A stretch of 64,000 nt of DNA, taken from contig JARUPZ010000035.1 of the NCBI GenBank assembly GCA_031213475.1, positions 1,534,032 to 1,598,031 on the forward strand. The letters are read 5' to 3'. The notes beneath the pieces were generated by a model, which made no database searches, was not told the DNA's origin, and saw only the letters and a program-made list of their open reading frames with translations. This document shows, one piece after another, positions 1 through 64,000 of this stretch. How positions within the stretch are numbered: the stretch's first letter is position 1; each line of letters opens with the position of its first letter. The position numbers and the translations under genes are program-made. The stretch comes from Nereocystis luetkeana. Its lineage: Eukaryota > Sar > Phaeophyceae > Laminariales > Laminariaceae.

Positions 1-3000
1 AATTTTGAGCTGTTGCAGTCTCGCCTCCTGAAGGAGGTCGGCGGCTTCCTCCACGACTTCGGGGTGACGGACAGCCACTACGTCTTCTACAGGGTGAGGA
101 GGAGAACCGTAGCACTGCCGTGCTAGCGTGTGTGGACGTACGTTGTGCTTGTCGTACCCAGGACGGCAGCATGTGAATTGTTTGCGTCGTCTGCTCGGCT
201 TGCGAGTGCCGCATTGCGATGTACCATCTCTGTGTCGTAGTTTTTGTGACCGCGGCGGAGCCTGTACCTCTCTTGGGATTGAAGAATCGGCACCCGGACG
301 CTGGATGTTGCTTGGATGTCGACGAGTAAAAGAACGGTTTCGTGTGAAGAACTCAAATAGTATGCTCGTAGCGCGAGTTCTTTTTTCGTTTCTGTGTGTG
401 TTATGTGCGTGTGTGTGCGTCGGCCGTCATCCCGATTTGTGCGTCGCGGGTGAAGGTGTTGCTGGTGGTGGTGGTGGTGGTGTTGTACTCCGCGAAGAAC
501 CGCCTCAAGAAGAGGTTGGACCCAGAGAACTTGGACGAACCAGAACATCCGAGTGCTGGGGAGGGCCGATCGGTCGGAGTGCTGGCCTGGGGAGGTTTGG
601 ATTGCCTGACCCCCCGGGGTAGTCGGAAACGCCAATTTCCGGTATTGCGGGGGACCGTAGTAAACGGGACCAAATTATTGTTGGTAACAATAGGAAAATA
701 TGTAGGTTTTTGTGTGCACCGTAGGTCCTATTTACTATGGCCCCCCGTAATAGTTACCAGGTATGGTATTGATGTTGGTAGTAAAAGTATCAGCAATTTT
801 ACTATTACGGGGGACCATAGTTAACAGGACCGAATATTGTGAGTAAAAATGGTTTAATATATAGGTTTTTATGTATATCATAGGTCCTGTTAACTATGGC
901 CCCCCGTAATAGTAATCGGTGGCGGTATCATAGTATTGTCTGTAGTAGTATTTGACTGGTTTGCCCCCTAAAACGTGGGATCGGTCCTGAAAGGGTTGGA
1001 GAGACAACGAGCCCAGAAGAAACGAAAATCGCAATCACACCTGTGTGCGAGGACTCTACGCTCCCTTTATCTTGACCCCCCTCAGTACCGCAGTAGTCCC
1101 GACTCGAGGACAAACCACTCTAATTCCGAGCGGTTTGTCCCCAAAACGGGACTGCGGCGCTAAAAAAAAAGTGTTATATCTTGCATGCGTCTCAAGGTAC
1201 ACAAACAAGTGTTCTGTTTTTTTTTTTTTCGTCTTGCCCGTGTGTCTTTACCCTGGGGCACCTGGCACATCTCGTGTATGCTGTCTTTTGTCTCATCAGC
1301 AGATCATTAATACCGTTATTCCTGGTATGTACTAGTATATATTGCGTTGCACCTGGTATCAGCATGGCACACAGGGGGCAAGTGTGGGTCCCGGCCGGGC
1401 TCCGTGGCGCGTGCTCTGGACGTCGCCAAAATCTTGCAAGTAAATCGCAGGGAGGCCTTCCGCTGCCCCTTTTTTTCTTCTACTTTTTTTTTTTTTTTCT
1501 CGTGTTTTCACCCCCGCTGCTGTGCTCTGCTGTTCCTGAAATTGCCACAGCCCACAGAAGGCCTATAAGGCTTGGCACAACATCCGCGCTTCAAGATTAT
1601 TGCCTTTTTTGTGACAACCATGTGTGGTCCTAGGATCCTACAGCAGTAGTAGGAACCGAGAGGTGCAACTTGAGCTCTTTTTTTTTTTTTTGGTCAATCT
1701 ACTTTTTGTTATTTCGTACGTGTAAAGTGCTGTGTACTTATCAGGTAAGCTTTATATTTCGACGTTGTGGCGCCTATGGTACGACAGTGTTGAGCCACTA
1801 CTTCAAGGTCTTCTTTTTGTGACAGCCACGGACGAAGCCTCTTGTGTGTGCGCGCGTGGGTATGCTCATTTGGGCGTGCCATCCTGAAGGCAACGCGCTG
1901 GAGATTCCAACCCACCCTACTTACTCCCTCTCAAATTCGAAAGCACCCACGCATACAGCAAGGGGCGTTACAGCGGCGGCGTTACAGCAGCAGCGGCAGT
2001 AGTAGCGGCAGTAGTAGCGGTACGCACCAGCGGAGCTCACACAGGCTCAATCAAGTAGACACCTGGTGGGAACGCCTCCTCTGTTCTCCCTTTTCGACTC
2101 GCGACCGCCCACCCCGAAGATAATTTTGTCATATGTGGGTATGCTGCGTATATCTTGACGACATACCTTGTATCAGTATCTCATACCAGTCTTGTCCCTA
2201 AACACGAAGACATGCTGCATATTAAACAGTCACCAGAAACGATCCCTACATTCAGAGGCAGTGGTATATTGTATATACTAGTATATACCTGGTACTAGCT
2301 AGGCATCTTGCATCTGCCTGCATAACTTCTCCCAACTTTATCTTGTGTCTCCTATTTCGTCCCAAAACTGTTTTTTTTTTTTTTTTTTTCATCTATTTAC
2401 GGGGGACCATAGTTAATAGAAGCTACGACACATACAAAAACCTACCATATTTACCTAATTTTTTTCTAGCAATATCTGGTCCTGCTTTCTATGGCCCCCC
2501 GTAATAACATGCCTGGTATTGTTTTAATCGCCACAGGGGCCTGTGTCTGTGAAGCCTCTGATGTGGGTGCTGGGCCTGGCCACAATGGGAGGCTCTTTGA
2601 AGTGGGAGGGGGACAGCAAGCAGGCCAGCATTTACCTCGTGCCGCGAGACCCTTCGAAGGAGATGAAGGTGATGATCTTTTTGTCGGAGGGCGGCTGTGG
2701 CGGGGTGGTGTGGAGAAGTGCGAGGAGGTGTTGGTGGTGTTGGTCTCTAGGGGGGGGGGTGGGAGGTGCCTGGGCGGTTGTGGTGGTGGTAGTTTGTTTG
2801 TGCACTTGGTGGTATTGCGGGGGACCATAGTAAATAGGATCAAGAGTTATTGAAAAAAAAAAGAGGTAAATATAGAGTTTTTTTTGTGTTACCGTAGGTC
2901 CTATTTACTGTCGCCCCCCCCCCGAAAATAAGTGGTTTTGGTGTTGGTGTTGGTGTGGTTGCGTGTTCCTTTAGGGTATTATTGATGCTGAGTGTTGTTT

Positions 3001-6000: not shown

Positions 6001-9000
6001 CGGGAGATGAGAAGGCCACAGGTAAATGCTTCCGACTACTGCAGGTTTGCCTCGACTAACAAGCTGCTTGGAAATAGTGTGGGGTCCTTTTTTTTTAGTA
6101 TTGTGGGGGGCCATAGTAAATGGGACCTACGGTACACACAAAAACCTATACATTTACCTACAATCACTAACACTATTTGGTCCTATTTACTATGGTCCCC
6201 CGAATTAGTTTGAGATATGAGACCACGTGTGGAGAGATAATAAATACCACGTAAAATGGCGTCGTCACGGGTTGGTCTTGAAAATGGGTGTACCACCCGG
6301 GTGATAGAATATCACACCCCCTTGGGGCGAATTTCTTCCCTGATTTTCCCCCGACAGCCGGGAAGCTTGCACCTGCCAAGCGACGCGCCTACGGGAAGGC
6401 CTCGACGAGATAGTTCCGAAGCCGCCATTTTTCGTTATTGTGTACGTGCTCGTACCCCCCCCCCCCCCCGCTATTATGTGTAGGTTGGATTGGCGTCGGT
6501 TGGCCACGGCACTGCAAAACATGCCGCTCGCTTGTACGCGAGCTGGACAACTAGGAGTGCCGTTTTTTGCTTCGTTTTGTTTTGGCGGTCGGTCACAGCT
6601 GGCGATCGAGTCGTAGATCATTTTTCATTTCGTGCGGGGTGGAGAGTCTGTTTTCCGCGCAAGGAGGATGGTCGTATCACGTACCTGCTACAGTAGTGTT
6701 TTATGGTCAGGCACCCACGAGGCGGTCACATGGTACTGCCATTGCTGTCTCTGGCAGTGGCTACACCGGGGAGTAAATCATCTCCCTGAAGCCGTCATCC
6801 ACGCGCAAGTCCGCCTCAGAGGCGGTTCATAGTAGGATGCAGGTCACCCTTCATGCGACTCGCCGAACACCTCACGGCGCTTGGCGCTCTTGGTGTGAAA
6901 ATTCGACGTGCTCCGTCCCGGCGTTGTAGGCATGCGAGGGTTTATGGTCGTACGACTACGGCCATGCATGACATCGAGTATACACCCCCCTCTGCCCGTT
7001 TGCCATGGAGAAATCACTAGTATACTACTATGTAGAGAGAAAATAATTAGTTTTTGTATGTCCTGGAGATATTACGACGCGGCGCCCGCGGAAGGCGAAA
7101 CACTCACGGAGGGGTATGACAAAAACAAAAAAGCGGAAACGTGTAAGAAAATGCAATGGGAAGAGCGTACCGTATTTAGCGGGTCCAGGTGTTGGAGGTG
7201 TCTCTTGTAGGACTAGGAACGGTCGGTGCTCCCGTCTTGACAGGGTTGCATGGTCAACGGACAATGAACGAAGACAAGCGACAAATGAGTACGCCCCCCC
7301 CCCCCTCCCCTCCCGCTATCATAGGAGATAGATGGTGGCCACAGGCGACGGAACAGGGAAGGGATACGCAAGATTTTGGCGAAACCAACCCACCAGCTAT
7401 GTTGTATATGGAAAAAGCGCACCGCAACGAGCGGGCCCAACTGTTAGAGGTGTTTCTATTAGGAGCAGGAACGGTGCTCCGTATCTCGAAAGTATATGTC
7501 AAATGACCTAGGGCAAGAAACGAATGAGTACCCCCCCCCCCCCCCCCCCCCACGCCCACCCCCCCCCCCCCCCCACCCCCCTGAAAAACGACGGCATCTG
7601 TGCCTCGGTAGAATTTTCGAAAATACCCACGAACAGGATGAATCGGTACCGGCTGGAGACGTCGTCTCCACAGGGCTCCGTAGTGGACTGCAAGCCCTTG
7701 TACCCCGGGCATGTGGATTTTCCGGTTGTGAACCCCAAGGTGAGGCATGCGATGGATGGATGGATGGATGGATGGATGGATGGATGGATGGAGGGATGGA
7801 TAGAGGGATGAATGGATGGAGGAATGGGTGGGTTGTAGGTGGGTGGGTGGATGGATGGATGGGTGGATGGGTCGATTGAGGGATGGATGGATGGATGGAC
7901 GGATGGATGCGTTTGCTGTTGGTGGTCATGTGCCATCCGTCCATCCACCCAAGAAGCCCACCCACATCCGCCTACCCCCCTCCCGTGCACACTCACCTAC
8001 GTACCACCCATCCACGCACCCACACGCACACGCACACGCACACCCACCCTAGCACACAGATACTCTCATATAAACGCCAACCCACCTGCCCCCCCCTCCC
8101 CCCCCCATATTATATACCTGGTATATATAGGTTGGGTTGGCGTCAGTTGGTGACGACGCTGTAAAACACGCCTCTCTCCCCCTACGTGAGCTAGACAACC
8201 AGGGTGCCGTTTTTGTCTCTGGCGATCACCACGGCTGGCGGTTGGGTCAGATTTTTCGTGCCGGGTGGAGAACCTCAGCTGCGCACAAGGGGATTGGTCG
8301 TATCGCGTAGTGTTTGCGGCAAAGCACCCACGAGGCAGTTACATGGCAACCCCATTGCTGTCTCTGGAAGTGGTCACACCAGAAAATAAAACAATTCGTT
8401 CGAAGATGTTCACCCATGTGCATGTCCGCCTCGAAGGTGGTTCTCAGTAGAGGATGCTGCTCACCCTTCATGCTATGATGCTCGCCGAACACCTCACGGC
8501 GCTTCGCGAAGCTTGGTGCAAGCCATGCCTGCCTGGTCGGTGAAAACCCGAGATGCTCCGTCCCGACACTGTCGGGATGCGACGGTCTATGGCAATACAA
8601 CTACGCTCATGCATGACATGAGTACCCCCCCCCCCCCCGCACACCTGTTGATGTTGGCGTCGGTTGGCAACGACGCTCTAAGACTCACCAACCACTGCGT
8701 GAGTGCTAAACACACCAAGAGATAGTTTTTGTTTCTGGCGGTCACCATGGATACTTATCGTTTTACTGTAGATCGTTTTGGGCGGGGTGCAGAACCTTAA
8801 ATCCGCAAAAGGGGGGGATAGTGTGCATGTGGCCAGGTACCCAAGAGGCTGTTAGATAGTATACCCATTGCTGTCTCTGGAAGTAACTACACCGCAGGAA
8901 AAAAAAAGGTTTTGCGACGCTGTCATCCATTATGCGTTGAAAGCACGCACGAGGTGCCAAAGTCCGCCTCGCCTCACGAGCGATTATTAGTAGGATGCAG

Positions 9001-10861
9001 CTCACCCTTCGTGTGACTCACCGAACACCTCACGGTGCTTGGTGCAAGCAATGTCTGCCTGGTCGTTGTGTCTGCCTGGTCGTTGAATATCCGACGCCTT
9101 TCGTCCCGATGCAAGAGTCTATGGTTATACGACTACGGCTATCCATGATAGTGGGCACACCCATTGACCCAACTCCTACCTCCCCCTCATACGACTACGA
9201 CCATGCATGATGAGTACACCCCCCCCCACCTACCTGTCTGCCTGGTCGGTGAAAATCCGACGCGCTCTGTCCCGGCATTGTAGGGATGCGAGGGTTTATG
9301 GTCATACAACTACAGCAATGCATGAGATCGAGTACATCTCTCCTATCGAGTACACCCCCCCCCCCCCCTCCCGCAACTTACCTCTCCGTATTGTTTTGTT
9401 GTTGACACGGCTGCGCCCATCATCCAGGTTTCGTGTCAAGAGCACCGCTACATATGGACGAGCTGTGGTTCTTCTGATGGTCCTGAGGCGTGTCCCGTAC
9501 AGGGAGTGGTTAAGATTGACACGGTGGAAGGAACCAGCGAGAGGTGGCTGCCCGATGCGCACGAATTTTTGGGCGAGGTGTGTACGGCATTGATGCGATG
9601 CGGTGTGGTGTGGTGTGGTGTGGTGTGGTGGGGTGGGGAGGGGATGGGGAGGGGGTGCTTTGGTGTGGTGTGGTGTGGTGTGGTGTGGTGTGGTGTGGTG
9701 TGGTGTGGTGTGGTATGGTATGGTATGGTATGGTACGGGTATGGGTATGGTATGGTATGGTATGATATGGCATAGTATTGTCTGGTGTGGTATGGTATGG
9801 TATGGTGTGGTATGGTATGGTACGGGTATGGTATTGTCTGGTATGGTATGGTATGGTGTGGTGTGATATGGTATGGTATGGTATGTCTGATGTGGTACGG
9901 TATTGTGTGGTTTGGTGTGGTGTGGTGTGGTGTGGTATGGTATGGTATGGTATGGTACGGGTATGGGTATGGTATGGTATGGTATGATATGGTATAGTAT
10001 TGTCTAGTGTGGTATGGTATGGTATGGTATGGTGTGGTATGATATGGTATGGTATGGTGTGGTATGGTATGGTATTGTCTGGTATGGTATGGTGTGGTGT
10101 GGTATGGTATGGTATGGTGTTGTCTGATGTGGTATGGCATTGTGTGGTGTGGTGTGGTGTAGTGTGGTGTGGTGTGGTGTGGTGTGGTATGGTGTGAGTA
10201 TGGTATGATATGGTATGGTATGTGTGGTGTGGGTATGATATGATATTGTATGGTGTGGTGTGGTATGGTACGATATGGTCTGCCGTGGTGTGATACTATT
10301 CTATACCAGGTATTATATGCTATGATATGATTTTGTAATTCTCACAATAACTCTCAAATCAAGGAGTCCGTGGCCACACAAAGGTGCTCGAGTTCTATTG
10401 ACAGGAAAATCCGAATAACAAAAAGACTTACAGTAGAACTCGGCCACGTTATGATGTGACTCATTCATTTTTCTCATTTACTTTTTTTGCAGACTTCATT
10501 CAATATCTTCGTTTTCTTCTTTCTCTGTCTTCTTCTTTCTTTTCTTTGATTCTCCCCCCCCCCCCAAAAAAACCCCCCTCAAAATCGCCCTTTTTTTTGG
10601 TCGTTTAAAAAACAAACCAAAAAAAAACAAACACACACACACTTGACACGATCTATACGTACGCGACGGCAGCCGACCTTCATCCCTCGCAAGGGAGCAA
10701 AGCCCGACGCCGACGAGGACTCTGGCTACATCGCCAGCATCCTGGTCAACGGCCGCGACCACCGCAGCGAGATCGTCATCCTGGACGCCGCCAAGGTGTC
10801 CAAGGGCCCCCTGTGTCGCCTGCCCCTCAGGGGGTTCGTCCCGCACATGTTGCATGGGTGA
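1..10861 (+). CDS. Carotenoid cleavage oxygenase (CCD/RPE65 family), C-terminal ~280 aa, 5' partial
   Basis: Seven exons join in phase: 1-93, 2537-2668, 3285-3353, 5679-5760, 7612-7739, 9428-9577 and 10673-10861. Members of this family are iron dioxygenases that cut carotenoids or related polyenes. The first exon holds the third iron-ligand histidine ([14 protein letters not shown]). Exon 3 holds the FxFHxANAY segment, exon 5 the xFPxVNP segment, exon 6 HRYIWTS and a KIDT-W-GE block, and exon 7 the FIPR, DEDSGY and VPHMLHG blocks with the last histidine. Every junction has GT and AG, and phases agree, including the single phase-1 junction between exons 4 and 5. The upstream exons lie outside the window. 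The TGA at 10859 directly follows HG, but GTGAGA at 10858 could be a donor, so a last short exon may exist, perhaps in the N gap at 11568. Two family second-shell glutamates appear as aspartate (NAYDD, VDFP). Introns are full of poly-C repeats. The family call is strong; the substrate is unknown. Confidence 0.9.
643..752. repeat. TA-flanked MITE, family 1 copy 1
   Basis: Foldback element with near-perfect terminal inverted repeats of about 30 bp (family termini TATTACGGGGGACCATAG and its complement). It is of the GTAAAYRGGACC subtype and lies in intron 1 of the carotenoid oxygenase gene. Confidence 0.9.
803..911. repeat. TA-flanked MITE, family 1 copy 2
   Basis: Second copy, 50 bp after copy 1, of the GTTAACAGG subtype. 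Both ends read TATTACGGGG and CCCCGTAATA, so a TA duplication borders a roughly 105-bp hairpin. Confidence 0.92.
1088..1162. repeat. piggyBac-like foldback MITE, family 2 (worn copy)
   Basis: Inverted arms around GTCCCGA..GGACAAACC and GGTTTGTCCCCAAAACGGGAC identify it as family 2 (best copy at 51902-51998). The outer TTAA ends are not preserved here. Confidence 0.75.
2285..2293. repeat. TA-flanked palindrome TACCTGGTA (example)
   Basis: First of about forty exact TACC(A/T)GGTA nonamers in the window. It sits in TA-rich sequence, as many of the others do. See the findings for the footprint hypothesis. Confidence 0.85.
2396..2507. repeat. TA-flanked MITE, family 1 copy 3
   Basis: Family 1 termini with a diverged left arm, placed just upstream of the acceptor of the carotenoid oxygenase second exon (2537). 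Confidence 0.85.
2813..2930. repeat. TA-flanked MITE, family 1 copy 4
   Basis: GTAAATAGG subtype with an expanded C run in the right arm. It lies in intron 2 of the carotenoid oxygenase gene. Confidence 0.85.
3436..3655 (+). repeat. Poly-C-terminated repeat (R1), 3' half
   Basis: Shares with the other R1 copies GGATGCAGCTCACC, CCGTCCCGGCATTGT, CATACGACTACG and the end GAGTACA followed by a C run. The 5' half is missing. Confidence 0.85.
3657..4112 (+). repeat. Poly-C-terminated repeat (R1), near full length
   Basis: About 455 bp from GGTTGGGTTGGCGTCGG to GAGTACACCCCC. It is adjacent head to tail with the preceding partial copy. No coding frame spans it. Confidence 0.88.
4137..5018 (+). repeat. 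Poly-C-terminated repeat (R1) split by a SINE
   Basis: The two halves of one R1 unit (4137-4415 and 4756-5018) are separated by a SINE at 4416-4755. The octamer ATTGAAGC is duplicated on both sides, and intact R1 copies (for example at 50677) carry it once. Confidence 0.9.
4416..4755 (+). mobile_element. tRNA-derived SINE, full-length copy S1
   Basis: A 340-bp element. Its first 80 bases resemble a tRNA: a box A-like TGGTTCAAGTGG and a box B GGTTCGAGCCC that matches the Pol III consensus, with a T-arm CTGGG/CCCAG. The body contains TTGAGAGCGCCTTGCAGCG and GAAAAGGCTGAAATCTTCTC, and the tail is A-rich (AAAAAAACAA). It is flanked by the 8-bp direct repeat ATTGAAGC at 4408-4415 and 4756-4763, inside an R1 repeat. 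Other copies are at 25459, 32246, 43745, 52248 and a fragment at 61676. The head looks closest to a tRNA-Leu type by its GGTGG..AGTGGTTAA pattern, which is only a guess. The mobilising partner would be a LINE; none with a matching tail is visible. Confidence 0.88.
5190..5240 (+). repeat. (GGGA)n microsatellite
   Basis: Uninterrupted GGGA repeats running into a G tract, in intron 3 of the carotenoid oxygenase gene. Confidence 0.95.
5373..5480. repeat. TA-flanked MITE, family 1 copy 5
   Basis: GTAAATGGGACC left arm and a decayed right arm ending CCCCCCGCGATA. It lies in intron 3 of the carotenoid oxygenase gene. Confidence 0.8.
6099..6206. repeat. TA-flanked MITE, family 1 copy 6
   Basis: Arms GGGGGGCCATAGTAAATGGGACC and the complementary GGTCCTATTTACTATGGTCCCCC, in intron 4 of the carotenoid oxygenase gene. 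Confidence 0.88.
6482..6990 (+). repeat. Poly-C-terminated repeat (R1), full length
   Basis: Full-length copy. At 6682-6695 it reads TACCTGCTACAGTA where copies at 3790, 8300 and 50580 read a plain TA, a small TA-flanked insertion. It ends in ACACCCCCC. Confidence 0.88.
7160..7312 (+). repeat. Second poly-C repeat (R1'), copy 1
   Basis: Shares GTTGGAGGTGTCTCT, GGAACGGT..GCTCC, GCATGGTCAA and the end AATGAGTACGCCCCCC with copies at 7416, 49325 and 50376. Its 3' end (GAGTAC then poly-C) matches R1, although the bodies differ. Confidence 0.8.
7416..7575 (+). repeat. Second poly-C repeat (R1'), copy 2
   Basis: Same family as 7160-7312. The C run after GAGTAC extends over about 40 bases with few interruptions and ends about 40 bases before the acceptor of carotenoid oxygenase exon 5. 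Confidence 0.8.
7751..7920 (+). repeat. (GGAT)n microsatellite beginning 12 bp after a splice donor
   Basis: About 40 imperfect GGAT/GGGT units start shortly after the donor at 7740. A CCAT/CCCA-rich stretch with CACACG repeats follows at 7935-8050, so the intron RNA could fold on itself. Confidence 0.95.
8129..8640 (+). repeat. Poly-C-terminated repeat (R1), full length
   Basis: Full-length copy ending in GAGTAC and a C run. Its start abuts TATATACCTGGTATATATAGG, a TA tract carrying one of the TACCTGGTA palindromes. Confidence 0.88.
8651..9185 (+). repeat. Poly-C-terminated repeat (R1), diverged
   Basis: Follows the previous copy head to tail. Its 3' end is duplicated and decayed (CTGCCTGGTCG appears twice) and it lacks a clean C tail. 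Confidence 0.8.
9188..9370 (+). repeat. Poly-C-terminated repeat (R1), two 3' pieces
   Basis: Two truncated 3' ends in series, each finishing ATGAGTACAC or CGAGTACAC followed by a C run. Confidence 0.82.
9601..10275 (+). repeat. (TGGTA/TGTGG)n pentanucleotide satellite
   Basis: About 670 bp of TGGTA and TGGTG units starting 24 bp after the exon 6 donor of the carotenoid oxygenase gene. Long open frames here in several phases are artefacts of the repeat. Confidence 0.96.
10335..10475 (-). repeat. RepA repeat with (AAC)n-type end, worn copy
   Basis: Matches the better copies at 35436 and 54930 over GGAGTCCGTGGYCACACAAAGGTGCT and the CTCACAATAACTCTC end. The microsatellite tail is not preserved. 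Confidence 0.7.
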
Positions 10862-11346
10862 GAGTAGGGACAGACTGACGGTAGCTCTTGTTTTTTATTG
10901 TTGGTCGGGTTCATTCACGTGCATGCGCGGAATGGGGGGGAAGGGGAGTAGGAAGGGCAGACGGGGTTGGGGGGGGGGGGGGGGGGGGGGCAGAGTCCTC
11001 GTTTGTTCTCGCCTTGGTCGTTCGGCCGTCGACCACGCACGCCTCTCGAGACGGAGCATCGCTCCTACTCCTGGTGGAGACAACGTCCAACTTTTTGGGG
11101 ATCTCATTATTTCCGGTTTTTTTTTTTTTTTTTTTTTTTTCCCCAGATGTTGCATTGAGTTGGCTTCGCCCACGTACCGTATCCCCTCTTTTTTTCTGGT
11201 TCGCCTTCTGTAGCCACGATCTACCTGGTATCGCTCATGACAGCGATCGTTCTTTTTTAGCTTTTTTATCTACAGTAGTGTGTGCTAAATTTCTCGGTGT
11301 CTTTTTCGTCTATTTTCCTCATCTTCTCCAACACATCCTGTTCTTC

Positions 11347-11460
11347 TACTACGGTGGACCATACCAGGTAGTTTATAGGGCCTATGGTATACATAAAAAC
11401 CTATATATTTAACCATTTTTACTAACAATATTTGATCCTATTAACTATGGTCCCCCGTAA
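11347..11460. repeat. TA-flanked MITE, family 1 copy 7, with a TACCAGGTA insertion
   Basis: Family copies read GGACCATAGTT; this one reads GGACCATACCAGGTAGTT. That is a 7-bp gain (CCAGG plus a second TA) exactly at a TA in the left arm. Confidence 0.9.
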
Positions 11461-13742: not shown

Positions 13743-14369
13743 CTGTGCTACTACTATTATTATTATGGTAGTGGGGGTTGCGCTCAACTGCTGAGAAGAG
13801 GTATGATCATGCTAATCTACGGTAGTATGGCTGGGATGTCGACCGATTATTTGAAGGGTTTTACCTAGGGTGTAGTGTGGAATACCACACCCCGTGCGAG
13901 GCGATGCGCATAGAGCGTGAAAGCATAATGCATGTATGTGTCGAGGCTCTGTCTCTTGACTGCACATGCTCTGTGACTGCACATCACAATATATACGTAG
14001 ATGGATCTCAACGCCCATACGCTGTCAGAGCGCCGCGAGCAACAGAGCCTACGGGTGTAAAGGCTTTGAAACATTGATCTGTTACTGTACCAGGTACTTC
14101 CAAATTTGTGGCCACTCCGCCGTTGGAGCGGAGGGGCCAGCTCTAAACCCCCATGGTATACCCAATATCGCTGAAACCCGATGTTTATTTTTTCAACATT
14201 ATTCGTTTTGATATACCCAGCCCACCATGTGGGATTTTGTGTATCGTGCTTGTTGCCTACAGTAGTTTTACCTACCAGGTACATAAGCAGTAAGGGTATC
14301 CACAAGTCCAAAAGCCTCCGTGGTGTATGAAATGCCATACAGCGGCATACGGGTGAGATTTTTTAGCTT

Positions 14370-18300: not shown

Positions 18301-18319
18301 ATTATTATTGTTATTATTA

Positions 18320-18390
<71 letters not shown>
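18301..18390 (+). repeat. (TTA)n microsatellite between two LINE copies
   Basis: A 90-bp TTA tract lies between the 5' end of the coding LINE copy (18300) and the 3' end of another copy (18391). Confidence 0.97.
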
Positions 18391-44947: not shown

Positions 44948-47900
44948 AACAACAACAACTACAACAACAACAACAACAGTAACATCAACAAGCAGGAGTA
45001 GTTACACCCCCCCCCCCCCCCCCCCTCGATTTGTTTGCCCTTGTCCAATTGGTGTGCGAAGCCGGCCCAGGAAACTACAAAACGGGGAACGAGTTCGAGC
45101 TGCTGTCGGAGTCACCAAGCAGGAGAGGTGAGGGTTTAAGGTGTTGCAGTGAGAAAAATGATATCACCACGATAGAGCACACCGTCAGCACGGCATCCTT
45201 CTCCACTTAGCAATTGCCAGCGGTTATCAGGCACAAAGTTAGTAGAGCAGGACTGAGACTAAAGGGAGTGCTACCCTGGATTGCAACCCTTGGGTATATC
45301 CGAGGTCCGGGCTTAAACTTCAGAGCCTGACGGACCCCAATTTGCGGCTTTTTTGTTCGAGGCACACCGTAACCACTGAGCTGGCAGTCGGCTCTGGCTG
45401 CTAGCTCGGTGAGTGTGGTGTGTCTCTACTCGTAGCAAGGACTTGTTTCGATTGTCCACGGTCGTGACCGTGTATGAGCGGTACGCGTGGGATGGGGTCG
45501 GGCGATCCGAGCGTGCGGCACGATAGATGGAGTGACGATGAGTGACGCCGTACAGAGGGAGGGTCGTCTCGCAAGCGCGCTTTTGCTTGTCGACAAAGCT
45601 TGACCGTTCCTCCGGAAGGAAGAAGTCTTCGTGCTTCTTTCTCAAACGCGCAATAGTTGAGCTCGAGGTCTCAGCTGGGTGCGAATAACAATAGTTAAGA
45701 CCATCGATGCGGGTGTAAAAACTGCATGTCGCCTTCCTGGCATTGGAACTCTCGACGGTGCAAACGTGCACTCGCATCATTGTGAGCAGGATGCGCTATT
45801 AATAATTGTCAACTCGGAGAAGAGCAAACACGTTGTCACAGAAGCACAACATGTCACAGGAATATAACATCATGTCACAATATACAGCCGCCTGGGGCAC
45901 AGTATGGGGCCCTGCCACATTCGTTATACGCACGTGATCGCCTGAATCTAACAGCTTGGAAAAACTATGAAGTGGCTAAGGAAGGAAGCGAGACTGGTAC
46001 AATAGGCTTCCTTCTCCCGGTTGTGCTCTGGTTTTCTTGTTCTTTCTGGAGCTGTTGGTGATCGTCTTTTACGAGTGAACGACGTTGCAATTTCTGCTGC
46101 ACATTGTGACGCACTGCTGTCAGGTGGCCAACAAGCGTGATATTTCGTATCACATTAATAGTGAGGTTCATTCTGTCCCGAAATATAGGCACCATTTACA
46201 TACTGGTACTAATACGCAAAAAACATTTTTTTGGCACGACCGCAAGGGAAAACAGAATAAATCCAGGCCCTTGTTTTTTTCTTTCCTCGTCAATGGCGAC
46301 AGTTATAACATTCGGCACGGCCGCAAGGGAAAGCATGAGCCTCATGACGGCCTCACCAGGAGTTCTATACAACGTGGACGGCGTGTTCCGAAACGGTCCG
46401 GTGAAAGGGAAGATCCTCCCGGGGTTTAACCTGGACACGCGGAAGCCGCTGGCGGAAAACTTGAAGTCCAAGACCACCGCCATATATTCGCCCAAGCTGG
46501 CGACCAAGGTGCCACCTCTGAGACGAAACGGTTCGATCTTGGAGCGGTTTTTGGTTGGTGACTTGCCGGAGTTCGAGTGTTGCTGTTCGCTGTCGAACCA
46601 ACCACATGAACTCTGAGACCCATACATATCTAGTTGATGTGCCGTTACAACGAACGCGTACGGGTGTAGTGGGTACCGGTCTGACCAGAAAGAGAAGGTA
46701 CATTTCGAGATTTTTGTTGCCATCTGAACGTCCCTTTTATTCACGATCAGACTGGTACCGGTCTCTTAGTTTGGATGCCTATCGGACAAAAGCAATGTAC
46801 GTACGAGGTAGCACCTTTTATTTTTGATGATACCAGTAGGGGGGGGGTATTAGGCTATTATTTTCACTGACGGGCTTAGGACCCTTGATTGGGTGACTCT
46901 TTACTTCACGTTGAAACATACTTGACGAAAATGAGGCACGCGAGCTCGAAGCGCGAACCTTTCTACATACCAGGTAGTGGTTTTCCAAGGGGAAAAAAAG
47001 CCTCTTCATAGCGTGATCATACAATACTAATATGATTTGTGTGACCAGACAAGAAATCCATGGCAGAAATCGAAAAGCGTAAAGACCAGTAGTGTAGCCG
47101 CCCGCGCATTGACTGCAAGAGGATCTGAGCTGCTGAAAAACAAGGCCCTAAAAATGATTGACTCCCTTGGTCACCTCTGAGAATTACGCGGTTTTTCTGT
47201 TCGATTTTTGGTTGGTGCCAACGGATTTCGAGTAACACTAGTCGCCTGTCAACGGAGTTCGGCTAGTACTAGTCACCTACGAGTGCCAGCTAGGCTTAAT
47301 GTAAAGGGATCAGGTCGGGACACTTCCTATCCCTTGTCCCATGTACCACAAATACGATCCCAGTACCAATTACCAGGTAATTCCCGGCCTTTCTGCGGTC
47401 ATTCACATCACGACCATTACTCGAACCCTTTACCACGACGCCTACGTTTGGGGAGAACCCATTTGGAATTGTTGGAGTTGAAGAGGCTTTTTCAGTAAGG
47501 GAAAGGCTTGATTGAACCCCTCTGCCGGACGTTCGGCGGGTCTGTATGTTATGCGTAACCTGCGAAAAGTCTGATGGGTTCATAGGTTATGGCCTGAAAG
47601 TTCCCGTGGGTTCTGCGTATTTTTTTTTAAACATGCACCGTGCTCGCTTCTCCGTGAGCCAGTGTGTCACACAGAAATGATTTTGGTGCATATCTAAGTT
47701 AGCCTATACCTGGTGCAGTATAAACCTCTTATTTTCGCTTGCTACAGTAGTCATATTTAGCAGTGCCGAAAAAGCGGCGGCAGATAAAACGGCCATGCGG
47801 AAAGCTTTCAGCCGAATCAACGTGCAGTCGCTTTGAGTAAGACGCGCCCGGCCCCGTCATCATGGCTTCCGCCATTGCTACTATAGCGGGGGGCCATAGT

Positions 47901-49996
47901 TAAATAGGACCTACGGTACACACAAAAACCTATATATTTCGCTATTTTTAATCACATAATCTGGTCCTATTTACTTTGGTTCCCCGTAGTATTATGGGGG
48001 ACCATAGTTAACTAGGACCTACGGCACACACAAAAACCTATATATTTCGCTATTTTTAATGACAATATTTGGTCCTATTTGCTATGGTGCCCCGTAATAT
48101 TAGTGCGATCTCAGGACACTGACCAAACAAAACGGTGTTTCCCCCCCTGCGCCTTCCCCGGCTCTCTTCCGCGCGCCTCTCTCTGCTCCTGCGAAATGAA
48201 AAGGGCGGCGCTGTCTGGTTCGGCGGGAAAGAGCAGGAGCGATTTCAGGGGACTATTGAGAATATCGGGCGACGCTCACCGGGACCAGTATGTGAGTTTT
48301 TTTTTTTTTTTTCAAGTGCGCGGTCGAACGACGCCGCGCCATTGATGACCGCTGTGTGGGAGTTTTTTACGCGCTGCAGGACAGGGATGCTGATTATTTT
48401 TAGTGGAACTGCGTTTCTACAAATAAGAAAGTTATTTTATAGTAGGTGTCCTGTGCTGCTGTTGATAGTATTGTCGCGACAGTGCTCACGTGCGTCAAGC
48501 ATGTCTAAATTCGCGAATGGAGGCAGGAATTGGGGATACTGCTGTATGGCGATATAATCGCTTACCTTGAGGTCGGTGCAGACAAAATAAGCACCACGAA
48601 ATCACTCGTCGCGCAAAAGGCTCGTAGTTTCTTTCACTCGAAAGGCAACACCTTTTTTTTTATTACGGAAAGCGCCGCATGCTTTCATGCACGCACTCAC
48701 AACACGAGGCACTATCGTAAATGTTAGCCCTTACCCTGGCATAGTTTCCTTCTGTGCATGAAGAAACCACCGCAGTACCAGTACCTCTACAAAAATCAGG
48801 GGCTGAATTTCTCCGACCTTGCCCTGCAGTGTCCCCCACCCCAGAGCGCCGCGTGGGCGCTTTGAGAGGCTTCGGGAGATGACCAGGTCGCCTGGCTGCG
48901 TCTTGCCAACCCTGTCTTGTTCCGTATCGTTCAATTATTCCCCTATTCAATACCAAGTGATGTCGACTCGATGGGAAAGGCAATGCTGCCTGTAACGTGT
49001 GGGCAGTTAGTGGGGGTTCATTCAGGCTAGGCGGGAAAAAGCGGCGGGTATGCGAGCGGACACTTTCGCTGACTCTATAGCGGTGCGGTACGACATACAT
49101 GCCTGCTGACGCCTCTCCTCTCTGAAGTGTTTCACGCTCAATTGTGCGAATCAACTTGGGGTTGTTTTCGACTCCGACACCCGAGCGTCGATTGCTCCGT
49201 GGTGCTGACAACTATCTCCCCACACGACTACGGTCATTCATGATAACGAGTACTGTACAGGAAGGGGTAATATTAGTACATACCTGGTACCAGGGTAGTT
49301 TCTATGTAATATATGGAAATAACGTAGTGAGCGCCCACCTGTTGGAGGTTACTCTGTTAGGAGTATAAACGGTGCTCCGTCTCGAAAGGGAAGCGTGGTC
49401 AGTGGTCAAATGACTAAGGTAAGCAACAAATGAGCACATTACCCCCCCCCCCGGCCTAGCCACACCGGAAAATAAATCAGTCCATAGACGCTGTCATCCA
49501 CATGCAAGAAGATCCGCCTCAAAAGCAGTTCGTAGTGGGATGCATCTCACCCGTCATGCGGGTCGCCCAGCACCTCACGGCGCTTCGCGCTTGGTGCAAG
49601 CAATATCTGCCTGGTCGGTAAAAAAACCCGACGTGCTCCGTCCCGGTATTGTAGAGATGCGAGGGTCTATGGTCATACGACTACGGCCATGGATGGTAAC
49701 GAGTACACCCCCCTCCCACGTGCGGTGGTCTCCCCTCCTCCCTCCCGTGCTGCTGTTTTGGGGTAAGGGGTAGGGTTGGGTTAGATATGTTGGTATCGTG
49801 CACAAGCAATGTCTCTCGCCCGTTATATCGAAGAAGTGGTGAGTTACGTACCCTGACCCTCGTCCCGTGCGTGTCCGTCATTTTCTCACCTGCAGACGAT
49901 GTTGCGAAATATGGAGGCCCTACGGGGCCTAGGTTCTCGTTCGGAGCCTCCCGGAGGGACCGATGGGGGAACGCGAGGATGCCAACGATTGTGTGA
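41086..49996 (+). CDS. PG-rich-repeat (STPGR-type) flagellar protein, 291 aa, five exons
   Basis: Exons: 41086-41455, 45062-45127, 46303-46553, 48204-48291 and 49896-49996 (TGA 49994-49996). The phases are 1, 1, 0 and 1 and join exactly, with codons split over junctions restoring Ala, Val and Tyr. The protein repeats two motif types seen in sperm-tail PG-rich-repeat proteins of axonemes: FSFG/ITFG/VWFG/FSFG segments followed by R-rich stretches (PPFSFGTSTRADW, VITFGTAARES, PRFSFGASRRDRW), and PG turns (AGPGNYKT, SPGVLYNV, SPGPVYDV) plus TAIYSPKL. The SPGPVY turn is only made when exons 4 and 5 join, which supports the model. The N-terminus is basic, with Gly-rich stretches. An in-frame ATG at 40996 is an alternative start. 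A role in cilia is inferred from the family; no enzyme motif is visible. Confidence 0.85.
43745..43937 (+). mobile_element. tRNA-derived SINE, 5'-truncated copy S4 with 15-bp target duplication
   Basis: Flanked by exact direct repeats AACCTATACCAGGTA at 43730-43744 and 43938-43952, in intron 1 of the STPGR-type gene. The tRNA-like head is missing and the tail is AAACAAAAACAAACTAC. Confidence 0.93.
44271..44386. repeat. TA-flanked MITE, family 1 copy 10
   Basis: A diverged copy preceded by CTATTAATATTACGG, so a TATTAATA palindrome overlaps its left TA. It is in intron 1 of the STPGR-type gene. Confidence 0.85.
44858..45000 (+). repeat. (AAC)n microsatellite after a RepA terminus
   Basis: CCCAATGTGAGAACAACA matches the 3' end of RepA (AATGTGAGAACAAC) and runs into about 120 bp of AAC repeats, so it may be the remnant of a short RepA copy. 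Confidence 0.8.
45286..45425 (-). repeat. Possible tRNA-derived repeat
   Basis: The minus strand carries an AGCTCAGTGGTTACGG box A-like stretch and GTTTAAGCCC resembling box B at plausible spacing. There is only one copy in the window and no tRNA fold, so this is weak. Confidence 0.3.
47882..47991. repeat. TA-flanked MITE, family 1 copy 11
   Basis: First of two adjacent copies in intron 3 of the STPGR-type gene, of mixed subtype (GTTAAATAGGACC left, GGTCCTATTTAC right). Confidence 0.9.
47990..48100. repeat. TA-flanked MITE, family 1 copy 12
   Basis: Abuts copy 11, the two sharing one TA (CCCCGTAGTATTATGGGGG). One element inserted at the terminal TA of the other. The pair ends about 100 bp before the exon 4 acceptor of the STPGR-type gene. 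Confidence 0.9.
49325..49452 (+). repeat. Second poly-C repeat (R1'), copy 3
   Basis: GAGCGCCCACCTGTTGGAGG to AATGAGCACATTACCCCC, with a mutated junction to the C run. Confidence 0.8.
49455..49715 (+). repeat. Poly-C-terminated repeat (R1), 3' half
   Basis: Begins at CCACACCGGAAAATAAATCA and ends GAGTACACCCCCC. It directly follows the R1' copy at 49325, in intron 4 of the STPGR-type gene. Confidence 0.86.
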
Positions 49997-50935: not shown

Positions 50936-51489
50936 TCAGCTGAAAACCCAGTCCCCTTTTAAGAATGGAAACCGAACACGTACAGTACCGGTACCTGGTG
51001 CCAGGTACCTGGTAGTTACAACCCACGGAGGCGTTTTGATACACCGTATTACTGTAGTTTTGATGGGATGGGGAGCACTGAAAGCGGCGAACTACACGCC
51101 CGTGAGAGAGAGTTTCTAATTCAAATCGGGGGGGGGGGGGGGGGGGGTCTTTTTCTTCACGATTTTGGGAGTAGAGTCGATGGTCGTGAGGCGGGCGAAC
51201 TGCTGGCAGTCCTTCAGTTGAATGTGGATGGTCGGTGTTGTACTGGCTTGCTGTTTATACATATGCACGAAGTACGTATGCTAACAATATATCCTGCATG
51301 TGGCTACGTGTAAGCCCTAATAATTGACCGACTCTTCACTTCTGAGTTCAGAACGATGCAGTTCAAGGCCAGATATTAATAGTACAGACCCCTCATGTGA
51401 CGGGTGGGGGGTGGCGGGTGGGTGTCAAAAGTAGGAGTGGGGGCGGGAGGGGTCCTATCGGTCGGGGGGTTGTTTGATAGTAGTATGCC

Positions 51490-55325: not shown

Positions 55326-55486
55326 CGACTATAATAACAGAAAGTGAAAATTGTGTTGTATACAGGCAGTGCTGCACTCCTACTGCGTACCTGGTATATA
55401 TCTAATGTATTCGTATACGAAAAGTTCTCGAAACGGGTAAATTGCAAAACACGTACCAGGTACCTGGTACGTACGTAAATAAGAAT

Positions 55487-55917
55487 GTATCTGGGTGCAA
55501 CAGGACAACGCGCCTTCCCACAACATCATCGACGACCCTGACATCGTGGCGGCTGGTACGGAGGGTGGGTGGAACATCAGGCTCCGCAACCAGCCGGCCA
55601 ACAGCCCCGACACCAACATCCTGGACTTGGGGTTTTTCAACTCCATCCAGTCCCTCCAAGACCGGACAACGCTGAACACGGTGGATGAGCTCGTGGAGGA
55701 GGTGAAGCGGGTGTTCGCCGCGCAGGATGCCGAAACCCTTGACAGGGTGTGGACGACCTACCAGTCCGTCCTCGAGCAAATCATGCTCGCGAGAGGTGAC
55801 AACACCTTTAAGACGCCCCACCTCAAGAAGCAGACGAACGCCCGTCGTCGTACGTCGATCGCGCGAGCCTTACCTGTTAGCCAGGAGGCGTGGGATGCCG
55901 CTCACCGGGAGAGCTAA
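55487..55917 (+). pseudogene. Mariner transposase fragment (C-terminal third)
   Basis: Covers the second catalytic Asp (QQDNAPSH) to the natural C-terminus (WDAAHRES, stop 55917). About 390 bp are almost identical to the inverse of 56395-56786; I saw one difference. The 5' two thirds, including the DNA-binding domain and first catalytic Asp, are missing. It preserves the authentic C-terminus that the larger copy has lost. Confidence 0.9.
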
Positions 55918-56326
55918 GGGAGGGGGGGTGGGGGGGGGGGGTGGGGGGGGGGGCGCGTTTCGGACTCTTTTCTGGTTTGGTGCCAAGTGGTTTTTACCAC
56001 TGTGTGGTGTTGTGTTCGGTGGGTATACGAGTGCTGTAGATGGTTTCCCTGCTGCTGTACGGGTGTTGGTGTCGCGACGCGCGCCTTCATTGCGTTCGCG
56101 GGGAGTGTGGTGGGACGTGTCGCCGGTGACGCGCGAAGTTAATAAAAAAAAAAAAAAAAAAAAAACGCCTCATGGCCAAATTTTATGGGAAAAGTGAAAA
56201 AAGCGGGGATGGTATCCAGGCATCCCCTGGCCACCCTAGCGATTTTTATGAACTCCCCCCGCCTCAAAATGCATACTGAAACGTTTTCATGCTTGTAATT
56301 GTGCTCTACACACTAATTTCGACTGT

Positions 56327-57988
56327 TTAGGAAACGAGCTTATATTTAGGGTTATTCGAAACGAGCCTATATATAATGTCAGACTTGGTAACAGGTAAGG
56401 CACGCGCGATCGACGTACGACGACGGGCGTTCGTCTGCTTCTTGAGGTGGGGCGTCTTAAAGGTGTTGTCACCTCTCGCGAGCATGATTTGCTCGAGGAC
56501 GGACTGGTAGGTCGTCCACACCCTGTCAAGGGTTTCGGCATCCTGCGCGGCGAACACCCGCTTCACCTCCTCCACGAGCTCATCCACCGTGTTCAGCGTT
56601 GTCCGGTCTTGGAGGGACTGGATGGAGTTGAAAAACCCCAAGTCCAGGATGTTGGTGTCGGGGCTGTTGGCCGGCTGGTTGCGGAGCCTGATGTTCCACC
56701 CACCCTCCGTACCAGCCGCCACGATGTCAGGGTCGTCGATGATGTTGTGGGAAGGCGCGTTGTCCTGTTGCACCCAGACGTCCCGGGGGCCCCCACCCGG
56801 CCACAACGCCTTGATGGCCGGGAAAACATGGTTCAACATCTTTTCCTTGTAGACGACCTTCGTCACCTCCACCATCTTCGTCACGATCGTGCCCGCAGCC
56901 CGGTGCCTACTGCTCCGTTGGGCCCGCACACGCTCGGTGAACGGGAAGATGCCGATCTTCCCGTCGAAGTTGCAGTTGTTGACCGTGTCTCTGCGCGGAC
57001 GCGCGACGGCCGCCAGGAACATCACCTTCTTTATGTCTGACTTGTGTTGCACTTTGTGGACAGGCGGTTGCTCACCCTCGCCCAGGTAGTAGATCTGGCC
57101 CTGTTTCTTGACAAAAAACCATTTCTCGTCCACCATGACGACGTTGTCCATGGTGTCGAACACGCGTGCACCACCATGGCCCTGGCGTACCCATTCCACC
57201 GCCCAATCCAGCCTCCGAGTCTTGGCCTCGGGAGTGAGGAACGGCTTCAGGAATCTAGGCGTCGCACGCATGCCTAGCTTTTTGAGGTTCCTCTGCAGCA
57301 CTTGCTGCGACATTCCCAACTGCGCTGCAACTGCTCTCTGGGTGGTGCGATTTTTGAGTGGTACCTCCAGAAGGGCCTCCTTCGCTTTGTCGAAGTCGAT
57401 GCTTTTCCTGCCAGAATTCCCGAACCGCTTGTTGCGCAAGTTGATGTCGGAGCCGTCAGCATCCTGCTGCTTGTAGCGGTTCCACACGCTCCGCACCTGG
57501 TAGATCGAGCACTCAAACTTTTTCGCCGCTCCAGCCACGTCGGTCTTGCCCAGTTTGCCCTCTTTGCTGCCCGCGAGGAGGTGCTGGACTAGTCGTTGCC
57601 TCTGTTTTTCGTTGAGATTATTGCGGGGCACTATCTGGCGAGCACTTCCAGAAGCTGACATCACCACCACAATATGGGAAGGGCTTGAACCGGTGGCTGC
57701 CGCGCGGGAGCTCTGTTTGCTGGTTGCTGGGGTGGCAGGAGCGAGGGCTTGTGGTGTGCTTTTTCCCAAAAAGCTTGGTTTTGGGAGTTCCAGTGATATC
57801 CACGAATCCAACGTAAAAAACGGGGTCACAAAAAACGTAAAACAGCACAAGTTATGCCGCTTTTTGTACGAAACGAGCCTATATTTAATGTCAGACTCCA
57901 GGTATGTTTCTCTGTTTCGTCGAAACATTCTTGCACGCGATAATTTCAACGGAAGAAGTACGAGTGAGTGCTGCCTGCACAAAGCCAA
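56327..57988 (-). CDS. DD39D mariner-like transposase, altered C-terminus
   Basis: The likely start is ATG 57661, giving about 444 aa. It has two helix-turn-helix blocks (KFECSIYQVRSVWNRYKQQ; RAVAAQLGMSQQVLQRNLKK), then the catalytic triad: VMVDEKWFF, QQDNAPSH, and NSPDTNILDLGFF. There are 39 residues between the second and third Asp, the spacing of plant-type mariners (Soymar-like), and LDLGFF is typical of that group. The first 110 codons of the open frame lie upstream of the likely start. After ARALPV at 56395 the sequence leaves the family and reads through a 29-bp repeat, so the normal C-terminus (kept at 55880-55917) is replaced. No terminal inverted repeats were found. Probably non-functional or at least immobile. 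Confidence 0.88.
   Translation of the reverse strand: MALCRQHSLVLLPLKLSRARMFRRNRETYLESDIKYRLVSYKKRHNLCCFTFFVTPFFTLDSWISLELPKPSFLGKSTPQALAPATPATSKQSSRAAATGSSPSHIVVVMSASGSARQIVPRNNLNEKQRQRLVQHLLAGSKEGKLGKTDVAGAAKKFECSIYQVRSVWNRYKQQDADGSDINLRNKRFGNSGRKSIDFDKAKEALLEVPLKNRTTQRAVAAQLGMSQQVLQRNLKKLGMRATPRFLKPFLTPEAKTRRLDWAVEWVRQGHGGARVFDTMDNVVMVDEKWFFVKKQGQIYYLGEGEQPPVHKVQHKSDIKKVMFLAAVARPRRDTVNNCNFDGKIGIFPFTERVRAQRSSRHRAAGTIVTKMVEVTKVVYKEKMLNHVFPAIKALWPGGGPRDVWVQQDNAPSHNIIDDPDIVAAGTEGGWNIRLRNQPANSPDTNILDLGFFNSIQSLQDRTTLNTVDELVEEVKRVFAAQDAETLDRVWTTYQSVLEQIMLARGDNTFKTPHLKKQTNARRRTSIARALPVTKSDIIYRLVSNNPKYKLVS
56357..56385 (+). repeat. 29-bp direct repeat flanking the mariner, left
   Basis: CGAAACGAGCCTATATATAA then TGTCAGACT, in the same orientation as 57869-57897; a partial third copy lies at 56331-56350. 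Confidence 0.9.
57869..57897 (+). repeat. 29-bp direct repeat flanking the mariner, right
   Basis: Differs from the left copy by one base (T for A in the TATATWTAATG part). Direct, not inverted, so it is not a mariner terminus. Confidence 0.9.
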
Positions 57989-61726: not shown

Positions 61727-62194
61727 ATACACACAAAAATAATATGCTCAGGCACCCTAATGTTTCTGATCATTTTTTTAGTTTTTACAGATACCCTATT
61801 TTTTTCTGGCCTTTTAATATGTCCTATTTTCCGGCTGGTGTACTTCCAGAGACTCGGAATATATCAGGTACCTGGTATAATATACCATGAATATAAAAAT
61901 ATACCTGGTAAACAATTAACCTTAAACAATGCCAGTAAACTTTTTGTTGGTGTTTCAACCACGAATGAATATTCAAAATATGAAATACCATAAGATCAAC
62001 CAAGCCAGCGGGATCACTTTTGACACGAAACCGTGCCGAAACCGTCATGAGCCGTGCGAAACCGTGACCCTGTTGCACCGTTCCGCGACCGATGGAACGG
62101 CGGTTTTTCTACGGTTTCAAGTTAACCGCACCGTTAAAAAAACGATCTACCTGGTAACGGTTTTTGGCACCGTCTCTTGGCGCACACGGTGCGG

Positions 62195-62746: not shown

Positions 62747-62951
62747 TAATAGTAGTAGTGGTCCCAGTAGTGCCGGTATATGCCAGCCAGATAAACCGGC
62801 TCTACTCCGGATTGGGGGATATATAGGTTTGAGTATGGGAATGAAACTGTGCCAGCCCGAAGTACCGACAGCAACTACTGAGGGACCACTCCTGCTGTCG
62901 GACCAGGCACTGCTTCAGTTTGTCACCTGACGCCGCCGGCCTCGTCGTGCC

Positions 62952-63060
62952 TATTACGGGGGACCATAGTTAACAGGACCTATGGTACACATAAAAACCT
63001 ATATGTTTAACCATTTTTAGTAGCAATATTTGGTCCTGTTAACTATGGCCCCACGTAATA
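62952..63060. repeat. TA-flanked MITE, family 1 copy 15
   Basis: GTTAACAGG subtype, 109 bp, one mismatch in the right C run (GGCCCCACG). Confidence 0.93.
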
Positions 63061-63777
63061 GGTAGGGTTATGCTTATTTTTCATCACAAGTTGTGTTTGT
63101 TGTGATGTTTGGTACAGCGGTACTGGACATACTCGTAGGGCTACCCTATGTAGGGCGTACGTACGATTTACATGAAGACGTGTATAGCCGCAACCAGATT
63201 CATCTCGTTTAAATAGGATACGACCACAGGTATACCTCAGGCGCAGGAGGAAAACACTGGTATGTTGTGATCGTGTTGTTCGAACTTTGTTTTGTTGCAG
63301 TTTTTTCCGCATGGATACATGGATACAGCAGCAGCACAAGTCGTGGAAATAGGAAATACCTGGTATGCGACTACAGCAGTGCAGTTTCCAGTACCAGGTA
63401 TACCGGTATGATATACAGCCAGTTTATGATATCGTCTTGCTGTGCTGCTGTACCGGTGCCTGTACACTGCTGTAAAACTGCGCTGTGCCAAGTAAACCAG
63501 CAGTAGTACGTAGGGGGCTCCCAACCATGCCGGTTTAAAAATGCCACTGCTATCAATAAACAAATGGTGAAATTGCTGGCACGACTGCTGTGACCCTCGA
63601 TATTGCCGGTTACCCTCCCTGTTTAGGCGTCCACGTCAGTAGAACTCCTAGCCTTGCTCCCCAGCGCTTCGTTGTAGATGAGAGAGGAGAGACATCAAGC
63701 AGTTCAGTATGGTGCCAGCAACCACACCCCTCCAGCCTATACTCTACCACTGTAAAAAAAACGAGCAGTATGTAAGA

Positions 63778-64000
63778 CCTATGCCAATGGAAACGCGAAG
63801 TTCATTTTTTTTTTCAAATACCCTGGTATATATTTCCTTCAAGAACAGCCGAAAATACCGCCGCTTTGGGGAAAAAAGAGAAAACATGTTTGATTTTTTC
63901 TTCTTTTTTTCCCAACGGCTGCTGGCGGCGCAATTGTTTTTTCTGGTTGCAAATTGTCAACACGCTGATAGAAACCAGCTCGTGCGACGATCGACGCTCG
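63778..64000 (+). mobile_element. Arm of a second foldback transposon, cut by the window end
   Basis: Matches 36671-36890 from ACCTATGCCAATGGAAACGC to TTGTCAACACG and continues into the sequence found inverted at 37528. It carries TACCCTGGTA at 63819-63828 where both other copies have a plain TA. Confidence 0.85.

Follow-up and report, generated by a model that had tools for sequence, protein, structure and literature searches.

The window analysed here is a 64-kb stretch of the 465-Mb genome of the brown alga Nereocystis luetkeana (C35:1534032-1598031), and the subject is a nine-base palindrome, TACC(A/T)GGTA, that recurs throughout it and is interpreted below as a probable transposon excision scar. 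Exact copies number 41, 22 with a central A (TACCAGGTA) and 19 with a central T (TACCTGGTA), and exact matching finds no C- or G-centred form in the 64 kb. TACCAGGTA stands at 755..763 (within a repeat), 10304..10312, 11362..11370, 14088..14096, 14273..14281, 21060..21068, 22409..22417, 29696..29704, 31862..31870, 32938..32946, 34151..34159, 38141..38149, 38889..38897, 41702..41710, 43736..43744, 43944..43952, 46968..46976, 47371..47379 and 63392..63400. TACCTGGTA stands at 2286..2294, 8115..8123 (where the paralogue L026, one of the sequences fetched from the genome, has a shorter TA stretch and a 13-base gap), 11222..11230, 19124..19132, 28367..28375, 29258..29266, 32231..32239, 38020..38028, 38088..38096, 49281..49289, 51006..51014, 55388..55396, 61869..61877, 61902..61910, 62148..62156 and 63357..63365. 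Three exact nested pairs, TACCAGGTACCTGGTA, occupy 19966..19981 (sites 19966 and 19973), 38177..38192 (38177 and 38184) and 55454..55469 (55454 and 55461). A tRNA-Asp gene at 20027-20100 lies near the first of these.

The window also holds a 424-amino-acid transposase at 56390..57661 on the minus strand, a representative of the candidate parent family. It matches the DUF7769 profile (39.1 bits, cut-off 27) and contains a stretch resembling HTH_Tnp_Tc3_2 (26.2 bits, under the cut-off of 31.5). The catalytic residues, picked by motif, are D178, D300 and D340, and the 39 residues between the second and third give a DD39D spacing; Pfam DDE_3 (PF13358) has no match in the whole genome. Relatives of the protein range from brown algae to plants, a Trifolium "mariner transposase" being 39% identical over 95%. 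The 5' end of the transposase-bearing element, at 57869..57904 (minus strand), reads TACCTGGA and then GTCTGACATTAAATATAGGCTCGTTTCG. A second terminal inverted repeat (TIR), TA-CCAA-GTCTGACATTATATATAGG at 56357..56390 (minus strand), is interpreted as the surviving terminus of a plus-strand partial copy that has lost its opposite end. A second, 5'-truncated copy of the element spans 55490..56388 (plus strand), and its first 395 bases form a 99% inverted repeat of 56384-56778. The initial annotation had missed both this Tc1/mariner-like transposase and an element end in the window that is preceded by TACCTGG.

The number of palindromes far exceeds expectation. A first-order Markov model predicts 0.43 copies in the window, and among the window's nine-base odd palindromes TACC(A/T)GGTA ranks first in over-representation. 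A duplicated block does not account for the excess, since just 3 of the 41 sites fall in sequence that recurs within the window; the flanks of the 41 sites are mostly unrelated. Genome-wide, 182,395 copies of the word stand beside 1,744 of the reversed pattern, a ~105-fold excess and a density of about one site per 2.5 kb; the C/G-centred form reaches 10,882 against 1,899 for its reversed control. An artefact of composition or microsatellites is ruled out by the Markov expectation, the reversed-pattern control and the unrelated flanks. A literature search found no paper containing the nonamer, and among the matches listed from open PMC papers there is no report of footprints of this kind in a brown alga. 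The initial annotation had put the sites at about forty and the chance figure at about 0.5 per 64 kb, both close to the values counted. It had also suggested that the genome may record very heavy past cut-and-paste activity, to be tested as a genome-wide excess of the word over a control, and the genomic counts show such an excess. Its example positions were correct to within 1-2 bases (63390 for 63392, 55453 for 55454). Of the span it gave, 2285..63828, the start corresponds to the site at 2286, but the site at 755 precedes it, and 63828 is a near-match that lies beyond the last exact site.

Comparison with paralogous DNA indicates how the word arises. In the fetched sample, 134 TACCWGGTA sites (W, A or T) were available, 11 of them with an alignable paralogue, and in 4 of these 11 the paralogue has a bare TA. 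Among 600 sampled control words of the form TA-N5-TA, a bare TA was found in 1 of the 131 with a paralogue (Fisher p = 1e-4). The remaining outcomes among the 11 sites, in overlapping classes, were other indels (6), identical sequence (2) and substitutions (2). Of the four sites that face a bare TA, one (L011) has a paralogue short of two further bases, and another (L030:269) lies inside a transposon copy. The window itself offers such a comparison in a family of miniature inverted-repeat transposable elements (MITEs), about 110 bp long and present in many copies, whose window copies differ at one TA (...GGACCA-TA-GTT). The copy at 11346..11460 (plus strand), with TTACGGGGG ends, carries TACCAGGTA, the site at 11362..11370, where paralogues read TA; the copy at 44271..44387 (plus strand) carries TACTCGTA at that same TA (44286-44293); and the copy at 62951..63060 (plus strand) has a bare TA at that place. 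Where comparison is possible, the evidence from 4 of 11 sites supports TACC(A/T)GGTA as an insertion at TA, which lends support to the initial annotation's reading of the word as an excision footprint of Tc1/mariner design. A MITE copy at ~27710-27740 has TACGAAGTA in place of TA, a rarer, additional five-base remnant.

Scars also re-use the TAs of older scars. Nested pairs sharing a TA (TACCWGGTACCWGGTA) number 15,917 genome-wide against 2 for the reversed control, 12.7 times the ~1,258 expected from site density when the number of TAs in the genome is extrapolated from the sample. The suggestion that a second event had used the TA of the first, made originally from nested sites in the window, of which there are three, is supported at this scale. 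In addition, six element ends (TACCWGG-TA-CCAGTCYGACA) are inserted at a scar's own TA. Three of the six belong to the 55 pattern ends described below, where ~0.4 would be expected by hand arithmetic; at L059 the scar at the element end lies within a MITE. Outside the Nereocystis genome, the 16-base nested form is present in one viral contig.

The best candidate for the parent is a DD39D mariner-like family with ends TA-CCA-GTCYGAC, rather than one with CCWGG ends. A search for TACC followed by up to six free bases and GTCYGAC gave 55 matches, a lower bound, against 0 for the reversed control, and 44 of the 55 read TA-CCA-GTCYGAC (TACCAGTC). This pattern requires TACC and omits the L033 ends (TACAC...) and the 5' end of L031 (TACTGGTA). 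The ends vary between TA and GTC and are alike from GTC inward. Four copies (L032, L059, L060 and L061) have TA-CCA-GTC at both ends (TA-CCAGTCCGAC), with TIRs and a TA target duplication; the window copy has imperfect TIRs. Transposase pieces of at least 60% identity occur in at least about two dozen places in the genome, and matching pieces total at least 104, with 99 of 139 candidates scored. A repeated TIR family ending in CCWGG was not encountered in the sampled sequence, either among 128 single TACCWGG ends or among 139 pairs that are flanked by TA and differ at no more than 2 of 16 nt. Four pairs beginning with CCWGG do not make a family: three are scars (L018, L024 and 38177 in the window) and the fourth, L016:3710-5803, is a lone CCTGG-type pair mismatched at 2 of 16 positions. 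The initial annotation had postulated a parent ending in CC(A/T)GG and proposed a search for elements bounded by TACC(A/T)GG. That search yields this lone pair and no repeated family in the sample, and the family whose insertion sites match those of the scars ends in CCA-GTCYGAC, so this part of the proposal is not upheld.

Members and relatives of the family show some peculiarities of their own. The copy at L033 is flanked by a direct target duplication of ~150-160 bp, far exceeding a TA duplication; taken as a possible natural comparison, this duplicated flank yielded nothing on footprints. Distant transposase relatives recur every 82-90 kb in G000:C29 between 3.89 and 5.05 Mb, with gaps of ~104 and ~201 kb, first on the plus and then on the minus strand, resembling a series of very large repeat units. 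The ends of L057 resemble those of plant Stowaway elements.

The link between family and scar rests on the DNA that surrounds them. Scar flanks carry TA at −7/−6, seven bases before the target TA, and it was recorded beforehand that the CCA family must share this feature against a background of 6-8%; the prediction was framed after ~19 termini had been seen by eye, 8 of them with TA at −7/−6 (8 of 16 by script). A further 39 ends were fetched, and collapsing 5 duplicate flanks left 34 distinct ones, in which L099 repeats an earlier flank (L063). TA at −7/−6 is present in 11 of the 34 (p = 1.6e-5), or in 10 of 33 without L099 (p = 7e-5). Two of the matches abut a scar whose own TA supplies the signal, and the like-for-like figure without these ends is 8 of 31 (26%; p = 0.0012). 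Among scars, nested ones left out, the figure is 69 of 248 (28%), indistinguishable from the 8 of 31 ends (Fisher p = 1.0), and the background is 2,282 of 31,768 TAs (7.2%). Twelve-base flank matrices built from 32 CCA-family ends (L099 included, the two scar-abutting ends excluded) give CCWGG the top score (z 5.6), followed by CCAG (3.1) and CCGG (2.4). CCA-family insertion sites share the flank signature of the scars. The signature extends to TACCGGTA (10 of 36) and TACCAGTA/TACTGGTA (11 of 72), and is near background at TATTAATA (5 of 122), TACWGTA (21 of 257), TAC(GA/TC)GTA (6 of 112), TSA (14 of 203) and CAGCAG (3 of 56). For 37 MITE ends the top flank-matrix score belongs to TTAA (z 7.1); C at −1 occurs in 25 of 37 MITE ends, 61 of 124 TATTAATA sites and 6,358 of 32,052 background positions.

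These observations are best accommodated, with a probability of about three in four, if TACC(A/T)GGTA is the repair scar left by excisions of a DD39D Tc1/mariner-like element ending TA-CCA-GTCYGAC, and we infer that all sites of this word arose by such excision. The cut position, overhang and repair path of the model are drawn from what is known of relatives. By analogy with other Tc1/mariner elements, the transposase would cut 3 nt inside each end, leaving a CCA 3' overhang on both flanks. Two such overhangs would be unable to pair, and the host may join them with their terminal A's opposite each other; fill-in of GG on each strand would then yield a duplex with CCAGG on both strands and A facing A in the middle, a mispairing that mismatch repair or replication would convert to CCAGG or CCTGG. 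The five-base remnant would consist of CCA from one side and GG from the other, and CC(A/T)GG is indeed CCA and TGG overlapping by one base. Since the TIR begins CCAGT, with T in fifth place, one end alone cannot give CCAGG. Overhangs laid two bases over would produce, as minor products, TACCAGTA/TACTGGTA or the mixed TACCGGTA, and these words are enriched too: in a sample masked for tandem repeats, which holds 130 of the five-base form, TACCAGTA and TACTGGTA together number 37 against 10.6 expected and TACCGGTA 18 against 5.4, and the six-base TACCATGGTA occurs once. The same rule may apply to a MITE family with TTA-CGGGG ends, whose TTA overhangs would anneal over their two terminal bases to yield TATTAATA. 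Single-mismatch neighbours of the scar exceed expectation by ~92, beside ~130 exact sites (sample; hand arithmetic). Among these neighbours, outer-position transitions show the largest excess, the pattern expected of decay, which suggests that the scars accumulated over a long period and not in a single burst.

The scar is not alone among words of the form TA-X-TA. In the fetched sample, words whose outer X bases are self-complementary are in excess by 2.2-fold (3 bases), 2.9-fold (4) and 4.2-fold (5), the last falling to 1.8-fold without CCWGG, and non-complementary X stands at ~1.1. A general excess of palindromes is ruled out, since AT, CG and GC flanks in place of TA give mostly 0.8-1.6, with a single value of 2.1 for AT around a fully complementary six-base X beside TA's 2.2. 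A 282-kb genome sample (the window, L001-L004 and L007-L028) contains 29 six-base TACAGCAGTA/TACTGCTGTA where 0.9 would be expected; mixed forms are scarce (1 and 4), and the word is possibly a footprint with two A:A mismatches. Sample counts also exceed expectation for TACWGTA (130 against ~47), TAC(GA/TC)GTA (56 against 11) and TATTAATA (62 against 1.8). TACGAGTA, TACAGTA and TACAGCAGTA are words for which parent families could be sought by flank signature.

A comparison with known systems places the proposed scar in a familiar design with an unfamiliar length. Mos1-type mariners end in CCA and usually leave TACCATA, the Minos footprint is TAC(GA/TC)GTA, plant mariner-like elements are of the DD39D type, and in Sleeping Beauty an A:A mismatch forms between the two 3' overhangs. 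The candidate family has the terminal CCA and TA target of Mos1-type elements; the Mos1 scar, in contrast, keeps three bases, and TACCATA with TATGGTA shows a modest excess here (65 against ~42 expected in the masked sample). The Minos word is enriched genome-wide (82,203 against 9,641 reversed) but differs from TACC(A/T)GGTA. In vivo, mariner elements are cleaved two or three nucleotides in from the end (PMC2642840); Sleeping Beauty is cut 3 nt inside (PMC7827188), and the footprint of Sleeping Beauty and Frog Prince is C(A/T)GTA (PMC3878927, PMC7827188), to which the TACWGTA word here corresponds. These footprints and the scar have in common a TA, a remnant (in the scar, a putative one) of the element ends with one ambiguous central A/T and a second TA. 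The Sleeping Beauty footprint equals its 3-nt overhang, whereas the scar, at five bases, is longer than one CCA overhang if the CCA family is the parent, and needs fill-in. Plant Osmar5, Ppmar2 and Stowaway MITEs likewise target TA and leave end remnants, and Stowaway re-insertion at an old footprint is reported (PMC9632168, PMC1925063); together with a DD39D-type transposase, these are traits that the present family shares or, for the end remnants, would share. Plant remnants are varied, however, at 1-4 bases, and here one five-base product dominates. The range reported for Tc1/mariner remnants is 2-4 bases (PMC7913693), so that a uniform five-base product, one base longer, would be unusual.

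Among other origins for the word, the one to be taken most seriously, though improbable in our estimate, is a different Tc1/mariner-like family, now rare or extinct, with CCAGG ends and a cut 5 nt in from the terminus, so that its 5-nt overhangs would pair with each other except at a central A:A, as the CAG overhangs of Sleeping Beauty do. Such a family would give TACC(A/T)GGTA directly, with four base pairs. The other enriched words (CAG, CGAG, CAGCAG and TCA) are also self-annealing at 3-6 nt, and the lone CCTGG-type pair at L016:3710-5803 could be a trace of it. Yet the sampled sequence contains no repeated CCWGG TIR family, although a rare one could escape, and the CCA family already fits the flank fingerprint; moreover, TATTAATA beside the TTA-CGG family suggests that a scar can exceed the remnant of one end. 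Selection for the binding site of a dimeric protein, whether a regulator or a chromatin factor, would be in keeping with the perfect dyad, its density and the scarcity of transitions at inner relative to outer CCWGG positions. It is very unlikely, given that the word is an insertion at TA at four of the eleven testable sites, that some copies lie inside mobile elements (11362 in the window, L030:269), that nesting at a shared TA so exceeds expectation and that several other TA-X-TA words behave alike. Least probable of all is a palindrome that spreads by slippage, gene conversion or templated repair with no transposon involved, for which the cyanobacterial HIP1 palindromes are the comparison case. 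The 59 plus-strand nested pairs among the matches listed are ordered CCAGG-CCAGG 23, CCTGG-CCTGG 17, CCAGG-CCTGG 14 and CCTGG-CCAGG 5, so that 40 of the 59 are direct tandems, as slippage would give. It would leave unexplained the mostly unrelated flanks of the 41 window sites, the TA-specific insertion and the match to the target fingerprint of a transposon family.

Excision of the CCA family has difficulties of its own, the main one being numerical: about two dozen transposase places and 55 ends, both lower bounds, face 182,395 scars. A family so small now implies that most events are old or that its copies moved very readily. No pair of paralogues turned up in which one had the element and the other the scar. 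Several ends are not simply explained, namely three that read TACC(A/T)GGA-GTC (window, L029 and L062), four identical ends TACCTG-GTC and one end TACTGGTA-GTC (L031); our guess is that such odd ends arose when an element inserted into an old scar and the gaps were repaired faultily. The spectrum of mismatches is also uneven, with 5 transitions at the inner C/G (2 and 3) against 23 at the neighbouring C/G positions, and 10 inner C to G transversions against 3.2 expected; plain neutral decay predicts neither. The unequal A/T orders of nested pairs mean that some of them may be slippage copies. Nor is flank matching one-to-one, for MITE ends also score CWG (z 5.6) and CAGCAG (3.9), and the match between MITE and TATTAATA came to light after the flanks had been inspected, not as a prior prediction. 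Finally, non-canonical footprints of various sizes are described for Hsmar2 and other mariner transposases (PMC3770610), so that length alone proves little.

If excision of the CCA family is the source, the consequences reach beyond one word. Surviving elements are the usual measure of cut-and-paste transposition, whereas scars record departures; with a few dozen visible copies and ~180,000 apparent scars, one could measure directly how many past excisions there were, how old they are, which targets were chosen and how the breaks were repaired. We lean, somewhat beyond even odds, towards the view that this genome is a readable fossil record: a single low-copy family would have left ~180,000 scars, tens of thousands more would have other origins, and scars could be assigned to families by flank signature even where the parent has vanished. 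The same view holds that end joining in this lineage retains 3' overhangs in full and fills in across from a terminal mismatch, making the footprint longer than the overhang; such terminal-mismatch fill-in would be a host repair rule.

The best named protein matches of the window's open reading frames (ORFs) are from the brown algae Scytosiphon and Ectocarpus, with others from Ascophyllum, Laminaria, Ectocarpus and Pylaiella. A reverse-transcriptase ORF (RVT_1) at 16221-18488 on the minus strand has relatives in Ectocarpus and Scytosiphon. A tandem repeat of the GGTATGGTATG type at ~9700-10300 raises the counts of TACCATA-like words, and a long inverted repeat at 36674-37747 contains perfect 16-18 nt stretches adjoining TA, including CCGCCGCTGTGGGAAAAA.

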